Shown: positions 25,198 through 50,191 of the stretch, piece after piece
Position numbering within the stretch: position 1 is the stretch's first letter
Layout: each line of letters begins with the position of its first letter
Source of the DNA: an uncultured Kiloniellaceae bacterium
Lineage (GTDB): Bacteria > Pseudomonadota > Alphaproteobacteria > Kiloniellales > Kiloniellaceae
Assembly (NCBI GenBank): GCA_947493695.1
Contig: CANLSF010000001.1
Coordinates: forward strand, 744,001-808,000
Reading direction: 5' to 3'
DNA: 64,000 bases
Notes under the pieces: generated by a model
Database searches by the model: none
Seen by the model: only the letters and a program-made list of their open reading frames with translations
What the model was told of the DNA's origin: nothing
Program-made: the position numbers and the translations under genes

Positions 25198-26235
25198 GTG
25201 AAGATTGCGCCTGCACAAGCCGATAGATTTCTCTCTCAACCCGATCCGGCGGTCCGCGCTGTTCTGATCTTTGGTCAGGATGGTGGAATGGTGCGCGAAC
25301 GCGCAGAAACCCTCGCAAAAACCGTTGTCGACGATCTGAAAGACCCCTTCCGGCTGGCCGACTTGACCGCTGGCGATCTCAAAGACGATCCCGCACGCCT
25401 GAGCGATGAATCGGCGGCAATTTCGATGATGGGCGGTCGCCGCGTTGTCCGCGTGCGCGACGTAAGCGACGCAATCACACCGGTTTGTAAGGATTTTCTG
25501 GCGACTCTGGCAGGCGATGCCCTGTTGGTGTTTGAAGCTGGCGACCTTCCCGCACGTTCAAGCTTACGAAAGCTCTTCGAGGCAGACAAAGCCGCGGCAG
25601 CAATCGCCTGTTACCGGGATGATCAGCGTTCCCTGCCGGGGGTCATTCAGGCAGGGCTGCGCGAATACGGGCATGGGGTCACACCCGACGCTCTTGGATT
25701 TCTCAGTGCAAACCTGGGGGGTGACCGACAGGTGACCCGGCGCGAGCTCGATAAGCTGGCACTCTATAAGGGTCTGGAACCCGGCACGATCGAACTTTCC
25801 GATGCAACGGCCTGTATAGGTGATACCGCAGAACTGACCCTGGATGACCTCGCGTTCAGCGTGGCGTCAGGCAAGTTGGCGATGGTCGAACGCATGCTCA
25901 GCCGCAGTTTTCTGGAAGGCAGCCATGCCGTCACCATCTTACGGGCGGTCGCGCGGCATTTTCATAAGCTGCAGTTTGTCTCGGGCATGATGGGTCAGGG
26001 CCTTCCCCTTGACGACGCCGCCAAAAAACTGCGCCCTCCCCTATTTTGGAAGACAGCAGCAGAATTCAAAAGTCAGGCGAATGCCTGGCCGCAAAGCAAG
26101 CTAGCTCGCGCAACAGCGAAGCTTCTGGAGACCGAACGGGAATGCAAGAAAACCGGCGCCCCTGCCCAAACCCTTTGTTCCCGCGCGCTGTTTGAAATTT
26201 CCACAGCGAGTCCGCTCAGGCGCCGTAAAAGATAA
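25198..26235 (+). CDS. holA: DNA polymerase III delta subunit
   Basis: A 345-residue clamp-loader delta subunit, which opens the beta sliding clamp. The N terminus (YLFG-like VRAVLIFGQDGGMVRERAE) and the C-terminal helical segment with YKGLEPGTIEL, CIGDTAELTLDDLAFSV and FHKLQFV match HolA. The start is a GTG after AGAGGAACCCAG. It is the last gene in the leuS run and is followed by 270 bases with no gene before parB on the other strand. Confidence 0.92.
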   Translation: MKIAPAQADRFLSQPDPAVRAVLIFGQDGGMVRERAETLAKTVVDDLKDPFRLADLTAGDLKDDPARLSDESAAISMMGGRRVVRVRDVSDAITPVCKDFLATLAGDALLVFEAGDLPARSSLRKLFEADKAAAAIACYRDDQRSLPGVIQAGLREYGHGVTPDALGFLSANLGGDRQVTRRELDKLALYKGLEPGTIELSDATACIGDTAELTLDDLAFSVASGKLAMVERMLSRSFLEGSHAVTILRAVARHFHKLQFVSGMMGQGLPLDDAAKKLRPPLFWKTAAEFKSQANAWPQSKLARATAKLLETERECKKTGAPAQTLCSRALFEISTASPLRRRKR

Positions 26236-26507: not shown

Positions 26508-27494
26508 TCAGTTCACCGGAACCTGATTTAAGCGGTGAAGCACATCGTCCAGCTGCTCGAGGGTTTCGTAACGGATTGTCAGCGAGCCGCCCTTGCCATA
26601 AAACTCGATTGCCACTTCCAGTCCCAGCATGTTCGACAGATCACGCTCGAGCGCGATGGTATCCGCATCCTTTTCAAAAGGTACCGGCCGTGACTCAGCA
26701 TTCTTGCCGTCGGGACTTGCAACCACGACCTGCTCAACTGACTTTTTCGGCTGATCCGTCTCGCCTGACTTTGACTTTTTAATCAGCCGCTCAGTCTCAC
26801 GCACACTCAAACCATCGGCAAAAATGCGTTTTGCCAGGGATGTCGGATTGTCAGCACCAATCAAGGCACGTGCATGACCGGCACTCAGTTGGCCGGCGTC
26901 GAGAAAGGACTTAACCTCATCCGGGAGCGTGAGAAGCCGAAGAGTGTTGGCAATATGACTTCTGCTTTTACCGACAACACGGCCCAGATCTTCCTGCGTA
27001 TGGCTAAATTCATCCATAAGCCGCCGATAACCCTCCGCTTCTTCAAGCGGCGAAAGATCCTGGCGCTGCACATTCTCAACGATGGCCACTTCCAGGGCCT
27101 GAGAGTCCGTGAAGTCCCTGATAACCACGGGCACTTCGTGCAGAAGCGCTTTCTGGGAAGCACGCCAGCGCCGTTCGCCAGCGATAATCTCATATTCGCT
27201 CGCCCGATCAGGATGACGGCGGACAATAATGGGCTGAAGAACACCGTTTTCCCGAATTGAATCCGTGAGCGAGGCCAGCGCTTCATCATCAAAATACTGT
27301 CTGGGCTGAAAGCGGTTCGGGTGCAGATGCTCAATCGGGACTTCTTTGGTCGAGCGCACCTTGTCAAGCGAGGCGTAATCCTCATTTTCGTCGCCGAATA
27401 ACGCTGCAAGCCCACGACCAAGGTTGGTGCGCTTTTCACTGTCCTGTTGATTTTCCTCTGAATTTTCCGCTTCAGAAGGATCTTGGTTGCTCAT
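26508..27494 (-). CDS. parB: Chromosome-partition protein ParB
   Basis: A 328-residue CTP-dependent DNA clamp that loads at parS and spreads. The start is basic (RTNLGRGLAALFG, the ParA-stimulating tail). The CTP-binding domain contains GERRWRAS, followed by the helix-turn-helix region (LGRVVGKSRSHIANTLRLL) and a C-terminal dimer domain after a charged linker. Three parS-like sites lie 2 to 11 kb away. Gene order is parA then parB, but 171 bases separate them instead of the usual few, so parB may have its own promoter. Confidence 0.96.
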   Translation of the reverse strand: MSNQDPSEAENSEENQQDSEKRTNLGRGLAALFGDENEDYASLDKVRSTKEVPIEHLHPNRFQPRQYFDDEALASLTDSIRENGVLQPIIVRRHPDRASEYEIIAGERRWRASQKALLHEVPVVIRDFTDSQALEVAIVENVQRQDLSPLEEAEGYRRLMDEFSHTQEDLGRVVGKSRSHIANTLRLLTLPDEVKSFLDAGQLSAGHARALIGADNPTSLAKRIFADGLSVRETERLIKKSKSGETDQPKKSVEQVVVASPDGKNAESRPVPFEKDADTIALERDLSNMLGLEVAIEFYGKGGSLTIRYETLEQLDDVLHRLNQVPVN

Positions 27495-27665: not shown

Positions 27666-28736
27666 TCAGCGCGGCGGAACTTCCGCTCTCGCGGCACCCA
27701 TACCGGACGCAAGCGCAGTGCCAAGCCTCTTACTGTTGGCAATCGCAGTTGCCACGGGGTCCTTGACGCCCTGTCCGACGGGAACCACTGGCTTCGGGGT
27801 TAGGGTTTTAGGAACCGATATCGCGCCAAGTGAAGCAGCGCTTTCGGGACGAGACATTCTTGCCCCGGATATCACAGAAGAATGCGGCAACCCCGAGCCA
27901 GACACGCCGGAGCCCTTCTCACGACGCAGGATTTCGCCTGCTAAACGAATGTAGGATTGAGATCCCGCACACTTCATATCGTACAGCAACACGGGCTTAC
28001 CGTGTGAAGGCGCTTCTGAAACCCGGACATTACGCGGGATCATTGTCTCATAAACCACATCGCCCAGATGTTTACGCACATCCTCGGCAACCATGTCACA
28101 CAAGTTGTTGCGGCGATCGAACATCGTCAACACAATACCTTGTATTTCCAGTTTCGGGTTTAGACCACGTTTTACGCGTTCGACGGTGCGCAGAAGATGC
28201 GACAATCCTTCGAGGGCGTAAAACTCCGCCTGAAGCGGAACCAGCACAGCATCCGATGCCACGAACGCATTCAACGTCAGTAAGCCCAAAGCCGGCGGGC
28301 AATCTATCAAGACATAATCATAGGAGCCAAACAGACTCTCGAGACCATCGCGCAGGCGATACTCACGCCGATCAGCATTGACTAGTTCAAGTTCTGCGCC
28401 AGAGAGATCGACACCCGAAGCCACGACCGCCATACCCGGGACCGCAGTATCGATGATCACATCTTTAACGGGCGTCCCATCCATAAGGACATGATAGATG
28501 CTGCGTGCACGGCGATCCGGCGCGACACCCAATCCGGTGCTCGCATTGCCCTGCGGGTCCATATCGATAATGAGAACGCGCTTCTTGCAGGCCGCGAGTG
28601 CGGTGGCCAAATTGACGGCTGTCGTCGTCTTCCCGACGCCACCCTTTTGGTTTGCAATTGCCAAGACCCTAGGGCCGCTGGATGCCTTTTGATTGGAGGC
28701 GTCGTCGTCCGAATTGGCAAGATGTTGTGGCTGCAC
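27666..28736 (-). CDS. parA: Chromosome-partition ATPase ParA with long C-terminal extension
   Basis: A deviant-Walker ATPase that pulls ParB-parS complexes apart. The Walker A motif is QKGGVGKTTT, followed by the IDMDPQGNAS segment and the LIDCPPALGLLTLNA signature. Chromosomal ParA proteins are usually about 260-290 residues; this one has 356. The extra ~85 residues follow AGEILRREK and are rich in Ser, Ala, Pro and Val with no recognised fold. The start is a GTG four bases after the rsmG stop, with GGGGACTAG upstream, so rsmG and parA are translationally coupled. Confidence 0.95.
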   Translation of the reverse strand: MQPQHLANSDDDASNQKASSGPRVLAIANQKGGVGKTTTAVNLATALAACKKRVLIIDMDPQGNASTGLGVAPDRRARSIYHVLMDGTPVKDVIIDTAVPGMAVVASGVDLSGAELELVNADRREYRLRDGLESLFGSYDYVLIDCPPALGLLTLNAFVASDAVLVPLQAEFYALEGLSHLLRTVERVKRGLNPKLEIQGIVLTMFDRRNNLCDMVAEDVRKHLGDVVYETMIPRNVRVSEAPSHGKPVLLYDMKCAGSQSYIRLAGEILRREKGSGVSGSGLPHSSVISGARMSRPESAASLGAISVPKTLTPKPVVPVGQGVKDPVATAIANSKRLGTALASGMGAARAEVPPR

Positions 28737-28740
28737 CTGT

Positions 28741-29427
28741 CTAGTCCCCTAATTGTAGGGCATCCAACCGCAAAATTTGACCTTCGCTACTAGAGCGGCT
28801 GGAGAACCTCTCGACCTGCATACTCCACCTTTTGCCTGCCTGGGTCAATTCTTGTTCGGCGTTTTTCCCCTTGAGCAACAGAAGTTGGCCAGTGGGAAAA
28901 GCATCTGAACCAGGTGGTGGGCGCTCAAGACACGTCTGACAGGTAAGAAATGGCCAGGCATAATCGAGCAGATTCTCCAGGGGTGCGAAGGCGCGGGCCG
29001 TTATCAGATCAGCTCTAAAAGGCTCTACGTCTTCAATTCTCTTATTATGAACAGTCACTTGGCAATTTGTTGCACGTGCCACTTCTCGCAAGAAAATGCA
29101 CTTACGCTGATCCGATTCGATGAAGTGAAGCCTCTTTACCCCGAGGATCGCAAGAACCATCCCTGGAAACCCTGCCCCGCTACCAAAATCGACGACAACA
29201 GGATCAGCGCCATCGAATGTCGGAGGGATATGTGCAAAAAGTTGCGCGGAATCAAGGAAATGCCGGCGCCATAAATCCTGTAAACTATCGCGACTGACCA
29301 GGTTAATGGACCTATTCCACTTCCCCAGCAGTTCAGCGTAGCGCTCCAATCTTGCCAATGTTTCACGTGAAACATCGTCGAAATCCTCGATGAAGGACGC
29401 CATTCCATAGGTCACATCAGGCGGCAT
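28741..29427 (-). CDS. rsmG: 16S rRNA (guanine-527-N7) methyltransferase RsmG
   Basis: Methylates G527 of 16S rRNA. SAM-binding motif I is [12 protein letters not shown] and a later [14 protein letters not shown] is typical of the family. The N-terminal [12 protein letters not shown] is encoded by a perfect parS site, a well-known overlap in gidB genes. Three starts are possible: GTG 29442, ATG 29427 and ATG 29403; the first two overlap the mnmG stop. It lies between mnmG and parA in a typical partition-locus operon. Confidence 0.93.
29359..29374. promoter_or_regulatory. parS site within rsmG
   Basis: TGTTTCACGTGAAACA, the exact 16-bp palindromic ParB-binding sequence, is embedded in the rsmG coding region (codons for V-S-R-E-T). 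It lies about 1.9 kb from the parB gene. Confidence 0.95.
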
Positions 29428-31378: not shown

Positions 31379-32026
31379 TACGCAATTCCTCAAGGATTCT
31401 GCAAAAGACCGGCCCTTGATCCGCAGGACAGTCACAGTCTAACAGACACCTCACAGGTATCCAGGCCGCTTCAGAGAGCAAATATCATCAAAAAATGAAA
31501 GTCGCCTCAAGAGATCGATGACCAGCCGAAGACATATCCGCTGCGTGGCCTCTGGCGACAATTCAAGCTTGGTTTAAAACTCTCCGGAAACCAAGCATAC
31601 ACACCCTTCCGTGTGAGATACACAAACCCTGCCCCATGAGCAAGACGACTCTCAGTCTGTTTCTAAATCAAAGCTCTCACACCCTCCTGCCAAAGGCAAA
31701 CCTACCATTCACAGGGTGCAGAAAACGTCAGAAACCCCGACTTTTGGGGCATTTTTGCTGCCGCATGTTTCACGTGAAACAATTCAGATTCGTCTGACAT
31801 TACCGGTCATTCCACAGCCATGGCGAGGCACAAGCTGACATAAAATAGCTTTTGAAACAGAGCAGCAGTTTAATAAAATGCGTCGGAACAAACTCTGTTT
31901 TTTCACTTTAAATCAATGACTTCTTAAACGTTCACACCTTAACATCAGCTATCTTTTTCGCATCGTAAGGCCTATGAGGACGCACCAGTCCCAACTGAGC
32001 GATGTAAATCACGGCGGACAGGACGT
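31379..32026. promoter_or_regulatory. Divergent region between mnmG and the TPR lipoprotein gene (648 bp) carrying parS
   Basis: No credible coding frame. It holds a perfect parS at 31766-31781, the promoter of mnmG-rsmG-parA on the minus strand and the promoter of the TPR lipoprotein on the plus strand. The part from 31840 to 31950 is AT-rich. I could not fix promoter hexamers. Confidence 0.5.
31766..31781. promoter_or_regulatory. Intergenic parS site
   Basis: A second perfect TGTTTCACGTGAAACA, about 390 bases upstream of the mnmG start. ParB bound here could also affect transcription of mnmG or of the TPR gene. Confidence 0.95.
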
Positions 32027-38699: not shown

Positions 38700-38715
38700 C
38701 GTTCCACGTGAAACA
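38700..38715. promoter_or_regulatory. parS-like site after ogt
   Basis: CGTTCCACGTGAAACA differs from the perfect parS at two of 16 positions (first and fifth), keeping the CACGTG centre and one full half-site. Such variants can bind ParB more weakly. It lies 3 bases after the ogt stop codon. Confidence 0.75.
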
Positions 38716-44938: not shown

Positions 44939-45982
44939 TCAGCCACGGATCAGCTTCATAAGCTGTTCAACATGCTCTGGCGGTGTTTGCGGAACGATAC
45001 CATGGCCCAGATTGAACACGAAGGGGCCGCCGGAGAGCGATTCCAGGATGTCCGCGACAGCCTGTTCGAGTGCCTCGCCACCGGCAACCAGCTTGATGGG
45101 GTCGAGATTTCCCTGAACCGTGATCTTTGGCTGCAGATGATCGCGTGCCCAACCCAAGGGCACCGTCGTATCCAATCCTAAGCCTTTCGCACCGCTCTCT
45201 AAGGCAAAATCCGGATAGGCGAGACCAACACCCCTTGGAAACAAAATCACCGGAATGTCCGGATGAACGGCATTGACTTTGGCGATGATCTTTTTACAGG
45301 GCTCAAGGCACCAGCGGCGCAGATCTTTTTCCGGCCAGACACCGGCCCAGGAGTCGAAAAGCTGCAAAACCTCTGCACCGGCTTCGACCTGGCGGATCAG
45401 ATAGCTTGATGTTGCTTCAACCAAAAGTTCGATCACACGGGCAAAGAGCTCAGGCTGGCTGTAGGCCCAGGTTTTTGCTGTGCTGAAGTCCTTGCTCGAA
45501 CCGCCTTCCAGCATGTAGCTGGCAACAGTCCAGGGCGCACCGGCAAATCCAATGAGCGCGGTTTCTGCCGGCAGTTCCTGACGCAAACGCCCGATGGTGT
45601 CGTAAACTGGTGCTAAATGCTCATGAAAGCCTTCAAGCCCGAGACGATCGAGATCGGCTTCGGATTTTAAGGCCTCCAGTTTTGGGCCAACTCCTTCTTC
45701 AAACCAGACTTTTTGGCCTAAAGCATGGGGAACCACCAGGATGTCTGAAAAGAGGATTGAAGCGTCAAACCCGTAGCGCCGGATTGGCTGCAAGGTCACC
45801 TCGACCGCAAGATCCGGTGTATAACAAAGATCGAGGAAGCCGTTCGCCTCTCCCCGGGTCTTCATGTATTCCGGCAGATAACGCCCTGCCTGTCGCATGA
45901 GCCAAATAGGTGGTTTCGGGAGAGTCTCGCCTCTCAGGGCACGAAGAAGGAGCTTATTTTCGGATTTCACGCTTTTTGCCAC
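44939..45982 (-). CDS. hemE: Uroporphyrinogen decarboxylase
   Basis: A 347-residue enzyme that converts uroporphyrinogen III to coproporphyrinogen III. PPIWLMRQAGRYLPEY is the signature. The FSDILVVPHALG catalytic aspartate region, GFAGAPWTVASYM and a C-terminal FNLGHGIVP are also present. The start is a GTG. In Caulobacter and relatives hemE sits next to oriC; here its upstream side faces a 527-bp gap with origin-like features. Confidence 0.96.
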   Translation of the reverse strand: MAKSVKSENKLLLRALRGETLPKPPIWLMRQAGRYLPEYMKTRGEANGFLDLCYTPDLAVEVTLQPIRRYGFDASILFSDILVVPHALGQKVWFEEGVGPKLEALKSEADLDRLGLEGFHEHLAPVYDTIGRLRQELPAETALIGFAGAPWTVASYMLEGGSSKDFSTAKTWAYSQPELFARVIELLVEATSSYLIRQVEAGAEVLQLFDSWAGVWPEKDLRRWCLEPCKKIIAKVNAVHPDIPVILFPRGVGLAYPDFALESGAKGLGLDTTVPLGWARDHLQPKITVQGNLDPIKLVAGGEALEQAVADILESLSGGPFVFNLGHGIVPQTPPEHVEQLMKLIRG

Positions 45983-46509
45983 TCAGGTCGGCTTCGGATT
46001 TCCCCACCCTACTTACAAAGAATCTTATTTAAATAAGAATATTGTAGTTGTTTGTTGGTGGGATGAATCATGGGGATTATTTAGTTATGCAAAAACTGTC
46101 CACCGCCGTCATGAGCAGATCAAAACCGACCGCATCGATGTGACTGAATTTTCTGACAACTTTTGCGACTCGGCGGAATCATAGGACGGGGATAAAGCTG
46201 TGAACAGCGTGAATTAGGTGCATAACTCTGTCACACGCAGGTGTGATTGCCCTCTTATCCCGCTTGTGGAAATTTGACTCAATCCTCGGATAGGCGGTGG
46301 GAGGATTTTAGGCTCTACGATAACCGAATTTTAACCCTTCTGATTAAAAGCCAGTTATCCACAATTTCATGCAGATTGATCCACCGACTTGCTCAGAACC
46401 GGGTCTTCGGCCTTGACGTCGGTAATCCGCGCAAAGCGTCAGAACTGGCGGCAGGTTCAAAGCTCATGTAAGAGAGGAACGCACCACCCGAACGAGGGAT
46501 TGAGAGTAT
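45983..46509. other. Candidate chromosomal replication origin (oriC)
   Basis: A 527-bp gene-free gap between divergent hemE and the PEP synthase regulator gene, the place where oriC is found in Caulobacter and other alphaproteobacteria. Directly visible: one perfect DnaA box TTATCCACA at 46355-46363; TTATGCAAA at 46085-46093 (one mismatch); TGTGGAAAT at 46266-46273 region (two mismatches); an AT-rich stretch at 46010-46060 centred on a 16-bp palindrome; and GANTC (CcrM) sites at 46020, 46065, 46167, 46176 and 46276. A single perfect box is fewer than in E. coli, but weak boxes are usual in Caulobacter. Confidence 0.65.
46023..46038. repeat. 16-bp AT-rich perfect palindrome in the candidate origin
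   Basis: TCTTATTTAAATAAGA is a perfect palindrome in the most AT-rich part of the gap. It may be in the DNA-unwinding element or may be a protein-binding site. Confidence 0.6.
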
Positions 46510-47331
46510 ATGACCATCATCCATTTACATTTGGTTTCAGATGCGACCGGCGAAACCATCAATTCCGTCGCCAGGGCCTGCCTCGTCCAGTTCGATGTCG
46601 CCGAACCGATTGAGCATGTCTGGAGCCTGATCCGCACACAGGGGCAGATGGACCGGGTGATTCAGGGGATCGAAGCCAATCCCGGCCCCGTTCTCTTCAC
46701 CATGGTCAACGGCAAGCTCAGACAACCTCTTGTGGATGCCGCGCGCCGGATCGGCGTGCCCTGCATACCGGTGCTGGATCCCGTGATCCATTCTCTGGCG
46801 GCCTATTTCGGGGTGGAAATGTCCGGCCAGCCGGGGCTGCAGCATGCGCTGGACGCCGAGTATTTCGACCGGATCGCAGCTATGGATTATGCCCTGGCCC
46901 ATGATGACGGTCAGCTCTACAGCGATCTGGAAGGGGCTGACATTGTTCTGGTCGGTGTATCCCGCACCTCGAAAACACCAACCTGTATCTATCTCGCCAA
47001 TCGGGGCATCAAGGCTGCCAACGTTCCGGTTGTGCCGGGGTGTGCGATGCCGAGCGAACTTCTCAGCACCAAGAAGCCGCTGGTGGTCGGTCTGACCAAG
47101 GATCCGGAAAGTCTGGTTCAGGTCCGCCGCAATCGCCTGCGCATGATTGCCGAAGGCGAAGATGAAACCGATTATGTGGATATTGAGTCGGTTCGGGCCG
47201 AAGTAACAGAAGCACGCCGGCTCTGCAGCCGCCACGGCTGGCCGGTGATCGATGTCACACGCCGCTCCATCGAGGAAACCGCCGCCCAGATCATGAGCCA
47301 CTATGCGCGGCATTGTGAGCTTGCAGGCTGA
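46510..47331 (+). CDS. Pyruvate, phosphate/water dikinase regulatory protein (DUF299)
   Basis: A 273-residue bifunctional kinase/pyrophosphorylase that switches PEP synthase or PPDK off and on. The DUF299 signature includes HLHLVSDATGETI and the P-loop VGVSRTSKTPT, with DYVDIESVRAEV and a C-terminal WPVIDVTRRSIEETAA. The ribosome site is in GAGGGATTGAGAG. It is the first gene after the candidate oriC on this side, followed by maf, aroE, coaE and dnaQ with short gaps or overlaps, so the run is likely one transcription unit. Confidence 0.93.
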   Translation: MTIIHLHLVSDATGETINSVARACLVQFDVAEPIEHVWSLIRTQGQMDRVIQGIEANPGPVLFTMVNGKLRQPLVDAARRIGVPCIPVLDPVIHSLAAYFGVEMSGQPGLQHALDAEYFDRIAAMDYALAHDDGQLYSDLEGADIVLVGVSRTSKTPTCIYLANRGIKAANVPVVPGCAMPSELLSTKKPLVVGLTKDPESLVQVRRNRLRMIAEGEDETDYVDIESVRAEVTEARRLCSRHGWPVIDVTRRSIEETAAQIMSHYARHCELAG

Positions 47332-49513: not shown

Positions 49514-50191
49514 ATGCGAGAAATCGTCCTCGATACCGAAACCACCGGCCTGGATCCCTTTGCCGGGCACCGTATTGTCGAAATTGCCTGTCTGGAAGTC
49601 TTCAGCCATGTTCCGACCGGGGAAACCTTCCGGCGTTACATCAATCCTGAGCGCGATATGCCTGAGGAGGCGGAGCGCATTCATGGTCTTTCTGCCGAGT
49701 TTCTGGCTGATAAACCGCTCTTTTCCGATGTTGCCCAGGAGTTTCTGGATTTTATCGGCGAGGATCAACTGGTTATCCACAACGCCCAGTTCGATCTGAA
49801 GTTCCTGAATGCCGAACTGGATACATGTGGCCTGCCCAAGATCGACATGTCGCGGGCCATCGACACGGTCGCCATCGCGCGGCAGCGTTTTCCGGGAGCC
49901 CAGGTCAATCTGGACGCACTCTGCCGCAGGTTCGAGATCGACAACTCCTCGCGTACCTTTCACGGGGCCCTGCTGGACTGCGAACTTCTGGCGGATGTCT
50001 ATCTGGAACTGAGCGGCGGTCGCCAGCCCGGCTTTGACCTGAATGCGGCGTCTTCGAAGCAGGAAAAAACCGTCCAGAGCAGCGCCAAACGCACACTGCG
50101 TCCGGCACGGGCGCACAGTCCGTCAGCCGAGGAAATCGAAGCCCACACAGCCATGCTGAAAAAGCTTAAAGAACCGCTTTGGCGGCAGTAA
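49514..50191 (+). CDS. dnaQ: DNA polymerase III epsilon subunit
   Basis: A 225-residue 3'-5' proofreading exonuclease. Exo I is LDTETTGLD at the N terminus, Exo II QLVIHNAQFDLKFLN and Exo III HGALLDCELLADVY. The C-terminal 40 residues are linker and the alpha-subunit-binding tail. Last gene of the run that starts at 46.5 kb; it converges with secB. With holA (25.2 kb) it is the second replisome gene in the window. Confidence 0.94.
   Translation: MREIVLDTETTGLDPFAGHRIVEIACLEVFSHVPTGETFRRYINPERDMPEEAERIHGLSAEFLADKPLFSDVAQEFLDFIGEDQLVIHNAQFDLKFLNAELDTCGLPKIDMSRAIDTVAIARQRFPGAQVNLDALCRRFEIDNSSRTFHGALLDCELLADVYLELSGGRQPGFDLNAASSKQEKTVQSSAKRTLRPARAHSPSAEEIEAHTAMLKKLKEPLWRQ

Follow-up and report, generated by a model that had tools for sequence, protein, structure and literature searches.

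The origin of replication of Caulobacter crescentus, which has been identified experimentally, lies between hemE and a gene of COG1806, and the same gene pair is found at the origin of Rickettsia prowazekii (PMC1914354; this and the other papers are cited by PMC number, for statements in the available part of their text). The DnaA boxes of the Caulobacter origin ('Cori') include a G-box, TGATCCACA, and a weak W-box that contains TCCCCA (PMC4285127). For Bacillus subtilis, the origin of which is inactivated by reversal of its boxes (PMC6669920), the BUS, a combination of DnaA boxes and DnaA-trios, has been reduced to a rule: a DnaA box with at most 2 mismatches, a second box with at most 4, a spacer of at most 16 and at least three NAN 'trios' (PMC8287927). 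The middle adenine of the trio is contacted by Asn187 of B. subtilis DnaA, and a thymine at that position lowers unwinding and initiation; Asn187 and related DnaA residues are not universal (PMC10721633). The DnaA of Escherichia coli takes up, from the upper strand of the DUE, motifs of the form TT[A/G]T(T) (PMC10380432).

The 64,000-nucleotide stretch of DNA analysed here (termed 'the window'; C1:744001-808000) contains a gap of 527 bp, at 45983-46509, between hemE and a DUF299/COG1806 gene, which diverge around it in the arrangement of the hemE-COG1806 origins (Table 1). The gap sequence has a single match in its own genome (6.46 Mb, 20 contigs), exceeds that genome in A+T content (GC 0.47 versus 0.52-0.60 across 52 samples) and is overlapped by none of the listed open reading frames of at least 100 amino acids; scans of the window found no tRNA and, at the gathering score, no Rfam family. 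The nearest named records, judged by the DUF299 protein (98-100% identity), belong to Pelagibius sp. Alg239-R121, Denitrobaculum tricleocarpae and uncultured Kiloniellaceae. Among the 67 genomes of the class that were searched, 44 have COG1806, and in 38 of those (a hand count) hemE diverges from it within 2 kb on one contig. Because the hemE-COG1806 pair marks the Caulobacter and Rickettsia origin, the locus belongs to a known kind of origin. On the computed evidence, the gap is almost certainly the chromosomal replication origin (oriC) of this bacterium, and it is very probable that the explanation holds as a whole, namely that this is a hemE-COG1806-type origin of a Pelagibius/Denitrobaculum-type bacterium, working as proposed below. 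As an origin the locus is ordinary: oriC is filled in for one more lineage.

Table 1. Features of the proposed origin and its neighbourhood (positions in the window)
Feature	Position	Strand	Basis or remark
holA	25198-26235		NCBIfam match; no Pfam match
parB	26508-27494	-	PF02195, PF17762, PF23552
parA	27666-28736	-	PF13614
perfect parS	29359-29374	+	motif search
perfect parS	31766-31781	+	motif search
hemE, uroporphyrinogen decarboxylase (URO-D), left flank, GTG start	44939-45982	-	PF01208, E=4e-120
whole gap, proposed chromosomal oriC	45983-46509		single genome match; skew minimum at 46016
W-box core TCCCCA	46001-46006	+	kept in 4/4 genus members
AT-rich melting stretch, candidate DUE	46009-46068		third least stable non-overlapping 60-bp window of the 64 kb; holds skew minimum 46016
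GANTC (CcrM-type) sites	46020-46024; others start at 46065, 46167, 46176, 46276		
16-bp palindrome TCTTATTTAAATAAGA	46023-46038		identical in L028 and L029; one change in L027
tract TTG TAG TTG (T) TTG TTG, candidate single-strand DnaA-binding site, DnaA-trio-like	46042-46057	+	alignment, profile, run counts
weak DnaA box TGATTCATC	46062-46070	-	4 mismatches (hand count); module alignment
weak DnaA box TAATCCCCA, holds W-box core TCCCCA	46071-46079	-	2 mismatches; core kept in 4/4 genus members
weak DnaA box TTATGCAAA	46085-46093	+	two mismatches
weak DnaA-box-like TGTCCACCG	46097-46105	+	same in 4/4 genus members
weak DnaA box TTATCCCCG	46187-46195	-	not conserved in genus
weak DnaA box TTATGCACC	46217-46225	-	box search
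weak DnaA box ATTTCCACA	46265-46273	-	kept in 4/4 genus members
perfect DnaA box TTATCCACA	46355-46363	+	identical in 4/4 genus members
TGATCCACC, one change from Caulobacter G-box TGATCCACA	46377-46385	+	G-box from PMC4285127 (available part)
DUF299/COG1806 kinase-PPPase (PEP synthase regulator), right flank	46510-47331	+	PF03618, E=2.1e-91
dnaQ	49514-50191		NCBIfam match

The cumulative GC skew of the window reaches its minimum at 46016, inside the gap, and the best single change point is the same base. The remainder of the genome was sampled along with it (52 stretches, amounting to 1.02 of 6.46 Mb): on the gap's own contig, C1, all 8 of the 20-kb samples to the left of the gap are negative and all 7 to its right are positive, and this is the sole minus-to-plus switch among the 52. 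Thirty-seven samples came from C2-C10 (C10 being represented by one sample, and C11-C20 lying outside the skew sample). In the samples taken, C2, C3 and C5-C9 each keep one sign throughout; the one change of sign within these contigs, from plus to minus inside C4, is placed as a terminus would be. The unknown order of the contigs is harmless, since a skew minimum remains a minimum in either contig orientation.

Comparable switches were seen in other genomes. In a relative represented by a single contig (G051), the skew turns from minus to plus between samples at 353-373 kb and 374-394 kb, with the gap at about 373 kb, and returns to minus between 2.4 and 2.6 Mb, not far from the antipode. At 4.0 Mb, contrary to expectation, the sample has a positive skew. 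In another (G022), the skew is still -0.002 at 600-620 kb and has become +0.017 at 670-690 kb, which places the switch roughly 10-80 kb from the gap at 691 kb. Local skew was also followed through flanks of about 6 kb in 12 of the 15 loci of the closest named records, with minus values on the left and plus values on the right in 8 of the 12 and some other pattern in 4; the local minimum lies at most 1 kb from the gap in 7 of the 12, and the value on the right exceeds that on the left in all 12.

A preliminary description of the window had offered this gap beside hemE, devoid of genes, as a candidate oriC with ParAB, two perfect parS sites, holA and dnaQ nearby, a proposal that a skew minimum far from the locus would have contradicted. 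Its account of the locus is borne out by the hemE and DUF299/COG1806 borders, by the scans for reading frames, tRNAs and Rfam families, and by the domain matches and the parS search (for which the expectation in shuffled sequence is 0.01 sites, even at two mismatches); the candidate itself is supported by the position of the skew minimum, the sole minus-to-plus flip, the flanking genes, parABS and conservation. Two minor sites may be recorded alongside: a third parS-like sequence, with two mismatches, at 38700-38715 of the window, and the window's second perfect DnaA box, at 49773-49781, which falls within the dnaQ reading frame.

The gap shares with Caulobacter Cori and the R. prowazekii oriC its flanking genes, its AT-richness and a combination of few strong and several weak DnaA sites, and with Cori, as compared via the published box types (PMC4285127, available part), its G-box-like and W-box (TCCCCA) sequences. 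It differs from Caulobacter in that its strong box is TTATCCACA, not TGATCCACA, and in that the gap has no match to the IHF consensus (WATCAN5WTR or WATCAN4TTR); it differs from both Caulobacter and Rickettsia in that the gap has no exact TTAA-N7-TTAA CtrA site. CtrA and IHF sites were not treated as defining, and CtrA sites are absent from some other predicted origins. Two loose CtrA-like sites (TTWW-N7-TTWW) are poorly kept in the genus (of three genus mates, none has the one at 46344 and one has that at 46320), and CtrA control of the gap is not claimed. GANTC sites are modestly enriched in the gap, with 5 found versus 2.0 expected (at least 5 occur in 28 of 2539 sliding windows of 527 nt, the gap's own counted among them), and the genome encodes GcrA together with a RAMA-domain gene that is presumably of the CcrM type.

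Perfect DnaA boxes are rare in this genome: there are 34 in 6.46 Mb, giving an expectation of about 0.003 per 527 bp. The set in the gap is sparse, consisting at up to 2 mismatches of the perfect box and six others. At up to one mismatch the window holds no excess of boxes (6 found versus 7.0 expected); box density alone is therefore no evidence for an origin, and counting of boxes was dropped as an argument. Of the weaker sites, the box at 46062-46070 varies among genus mates (TGATTCACC, TGATTCAGC and GGTTTCACC) and reads TGATTCACA in several g4 relatives, and the plus-strand block at 46217-46225 (GCATAAC or GGATAAC) is kept in the genus and recurs in g4 and g5 gaps.

At the hemE end of the gap lies a conserved module of 100 bp (46008-46107), missed by the preliminary description, in which AT-rich sequence, a TTG/TAG tract and four weak DnaA boxes are combined. 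From left to right it runs through the AT-rich sequence with its palindrome, the tract (46042-46057), four bases, two back-to-back boxes on the minus strand and two boxes on the plus strand. Among four members of the genus, 87% of the columns of the module are identical, as are 100% of those of the perfect box; the corresponding values are 71% for 46206-46280, 39% for 46108-46205 and 38% for 46364-46450, and the best 100-nt block of the genus alignment starts at 46000 (88% identical). A profile of the module, built from 17 family sequences and applied at a threshold of 10 bits, matches 51 of 64 distinct gaps at or above that score on the plus strand, while reversed gaps reach 3.8 bits at best; outside the seed it matches 33 of 46 gaps, or 29 of 42 when four near-copies of seed gaps are removed. 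In the Inquilinus-type gaps (L014-L018), a perfect TTATCCACA on the minus strand lies beside the tract and is directly followed by CGGGGATT on the plus strand, a far stronger version of the window's weak pair.

The preliminary description had leaned most on the perfect box at 46355-46363, and the module is judged the more telling. That box is nonetheless present as described (TTATCCACA, in 4 of 4 genus members), as are the weaker boxes (the six at up to 2 mismatches) and the AT-rich patch with its 16-bp palindrome (TCTTATTTAAATAAGA, at 46023-46038). The assignment to a sparse, weak-box type likewise fits a gap with one perfect box, degenerate boxes and two W-box cores shared by all 4 genus members, and the comparison across related genomes that had been suggested yielded the 87% identity and the 51 profile matches given above.

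At the trinucleotide tract of the module, columns 46041-46057 are 94% identical in the four genus members; the window's tract is interrupted by one base. In-phase runs of at least three T[A/T]G units occur in 33 of the 64 distinct gaps on the plus strand and in 0 of 64 on the minus strand, versus 0.9 gaps on average (maximum 4) in dinucleotide shuffles of the plus strand; they also occur in 7 of 36 gaps from across the class. When the pattern is widened to T[A/T/G]G, 59 of 100 alphaproteobacterial gaps have runs on the hemE-to-COG1806 (plus) strand, and none of the 100 has one on the minus strand. The hundred comprise the 64 distinct gaps and the 36 class gaps. Since gaps of relatives are not independent (nine similar ones come from g4 alone), the figures tally sequences and should not be taken as numbers of events. 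The 36 class gaps come from 38 adjacent pairs, the remaining two being the window and G026, which were counted already; the removal of 95 bases from either end makes their borders approximate. In the order set, L046 and L136 had no hemE match; the genome of the former was re-entered as L155, and the latter lies at a contig end.

The phase of the tract is also apparent relative to the boxes. In the 86 of 100 gaps where a box pair could be anchored, the in-phase NNG run beside it has a mean of 4.0, versus 1.4 when the 45 bases upstream are simply shuffled; single anchors are soft, in that 63 of 100 gaps also reach the threshold (11 of 17 letters) at some point on the other strand. The box pair of the window is degenerate, and there the automatic anchor chose gap position 215, a choice that was rejected; the core of the window was placed by alignment and profile. 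The middle bases of the 16 class gaps with runs of at least three units are G (29), T (23), A (22) and C (4). In the window's own genus and in g4 the tract is mostly TTG, and some relatives (L128) have plain TAGTAGTAG, which is the published trio 3'-GAT-5' (PMC8287927, available part).

Compared with the BUS of B. subtilis, the module has the same tandem co-oriented boxes, short spacer, trinucleotide tract and AT-rich stretch beyond, and the same G at the box-facing position of the trinucleotide. The boxes and spacer lie within the limits of the rule (TAATCCCCA with 2 mismatches, TGATTCATC with 4, and four bases from the nearer box to the tract). The difference lies in the middle base, which is mostly T in the window and varies among G, T and A in the class sample, with no conserved A, and in the DnaA protein, where Asn187 is replaced by Tyr. 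The window fails the three-NAN rule: in our own rewrite of it, the strict form with at least three middle-A trios finds nothing on either strand of the window gap. Applied to the first 330 nt of the plus strand, this form is passed by 22 of 100 gaps versus 36 of 500 simple shuffles. The orientation of the boxes in the rewrite was taken from these gaps, and also from what we take to be the E. coli orientation.

The E. coli DUE offers a second likeness, in the TTGT repeats, which lie beside the melting stretch and whose strand runs into a TGTGGATAA-like box; the upper DUE strand of E. coli reads into box R1, as in the window. It differs in that the tract of the window keeps a three-base phase, with TAG, and in that the gap lacks an IHF consensus match.

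The residue of DnaA aligned to Asn187 was read in all 50 genomes of the order (G026 among them), where it is Tyr in 48, Phe in 1 and Thr in 1, and in the 29 of 66 other class genomes for which loci were returned, where it is Tyr in 24, Phe in 4, His in 1 and Asn in 0; the residue aligned to Arg202 is Lys in 50 of the 50 order genomes. Chain 2z4r, which we take to be from T. maritima, has Asn at the position equivalent to 187, and the A. aeolicus chain (1l8q/3r8f) has Gln. Thus, with Gln in that chain and Tyr in the order, Asn187 is not universal. The alignment to chain 8btg, presumably B. subtilis DnaA, is ungapped at this residue. Residues 187, 190, 193, 202 and 228 agree with those described (PMC10721633, available part).

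Taken together, the tract and the changed DnaA residue suggest a variant unwinding code. The tract may be read either as a Bacillus trio or as the E. coli TTGT motif, and a relaxed trio code accounts for these sequences most simply. Tyr alone does not explain the preference of the family for TTG, since the residue change extends over the class sample and the richness in TTG is strongest in the family. It may be proposed, tentatively and at somewhat less than even confidence, that alphaproteobacterial origins open at a relaxed 5'-T[A/T/G]G-3' tract, not at a middle-A TAG, matched by a DnaA with the changes Asn187 to Tyr and Arg202 to Lys. If so, the mostly-TTG lineage would form a natural intermediate between the trio of Bacillus and the TTGT motif of E. 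coli, and the Bacillus and E. coli unwinding models would be variants of one code. No mention of a T-centred trio tract in alphaproteobacteria turned up in a search of the open PMC literature, a result that does not prove absence.

For the locus itself, it is rather probable that DnaA is loaded on the TTG/TAG tract. DnaA would nucleate on the perfect box at 46355 and on the weaker boxes through the gap; the back-to-back weak minus-strand boxes at 46062-46079 would guide it onto the plus single strand of the tract (46042-46057), which lies within and beside the easily melted stretch at 46009-46068; the duplex would open there, toward hemE; and helicase would then be loaded in both directions. 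Binding of DnaA, unwinding and the start of replication would thereby all take place at the gap.

Alternatively, the gap could be oriC and the tract a bendable or easily melted sequence, or the product of skewed composition, with no part in binding DnaA as a single strand. The failure of the strict trio rule in the window would fit, as would the lowering of strand separation and initiation by a middle thymine in B. subtilis (PMC10721633, available part), but this reading is unlikely, if far from negligible: the three-base phase is kept (NNG runs of 4.0 versus 1.4, while 33 of 64 gaps have T[A/T]G runs, versus 0.9 after shuffling), the tract lies only a few bases from the box pair, and it contains TTGT, of the TT[A/G]T(T) type that E. 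coli DnaA takes up from the upper DUE strand (PMC10380432, available part). The tract, as a candidate site of DnaA loading, is the useful part of the locus: its three-base phase is kept in many gaps across the class, the base that confers specificity in Bacillus is not kept, and the DnaA residue that reads this base has changed as well. It offers a handle on the recognition of single-stranded origin DNA by DnaA. It also gives a rule by which origins overlooked in counts of boxes might be searched for, namely T[A/T/G]G runs beside a TGTGGATNN-NGGGGATTN pair, on the hemE side.

To see in the gap merely a shared promoter or leader of the divergent hemE and COG1806 genes, with the conserved block as a regulatory leader of hemE, is highly improbable, even though a divergent gap is expected to contain promoters and the module of the window occupies the interval 26-125 bp from the start of hemE. 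Such a reading sits poorly with a skew minimum inside the gap, with a block that combines DnaA-box-like sequences and a one-stranded trinucleotide tract (59 of 100 gaps on the plus strand, 0 of 100 on the minus), and with the same gene pair being the experimentally known site of the Caulobacter origin (PMC1914354, available part). Promoter and origin functions may both be present in the gap.

The gene dnaA, which adjoins oriC in many bacteria, lies here at C1:944651-945133, 154 kb from the hemE gap; there is no skew switch at that point, the values on its two sides being positive (+0.023 at 900 kb and +0.031 at 1000 kb). The distance from dnaA to the gap is 129 kb in G022, 125 kb in G051 and 54 kb in G026, and the separation of the two may be old. 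It is barely credible that the true origin is another site, be it dnaA (C1:944651) or one of the pairs of perfect boxes, at C2:1011024 and C7:420005: the two perfect boxes 12 bp apart at C2:1011024-1011044 are denser than those of the gap, and in G022, with dnaA at 562 kb and the gap at 691 kb, the switch lies in the interval and coincides exactly with neither, but positive samples flank the genome's own dnaA on both sides, C2 is negative at 0.91, 1.01 and 1.16 Mb, C7 is negative in 4 of 4 samples, and dnaA of G051 (498 kb) lies 125 kb from the switch. The double box on C2 (6025-6045 of L064), which has no skew switch nearby, is perhaps a DnaA-regulated promoter or a titration site, not an origin; on C7, the two perfect boxes (C7:420005-420093, about 6006-6094 of L065) stand 80 bp apart.
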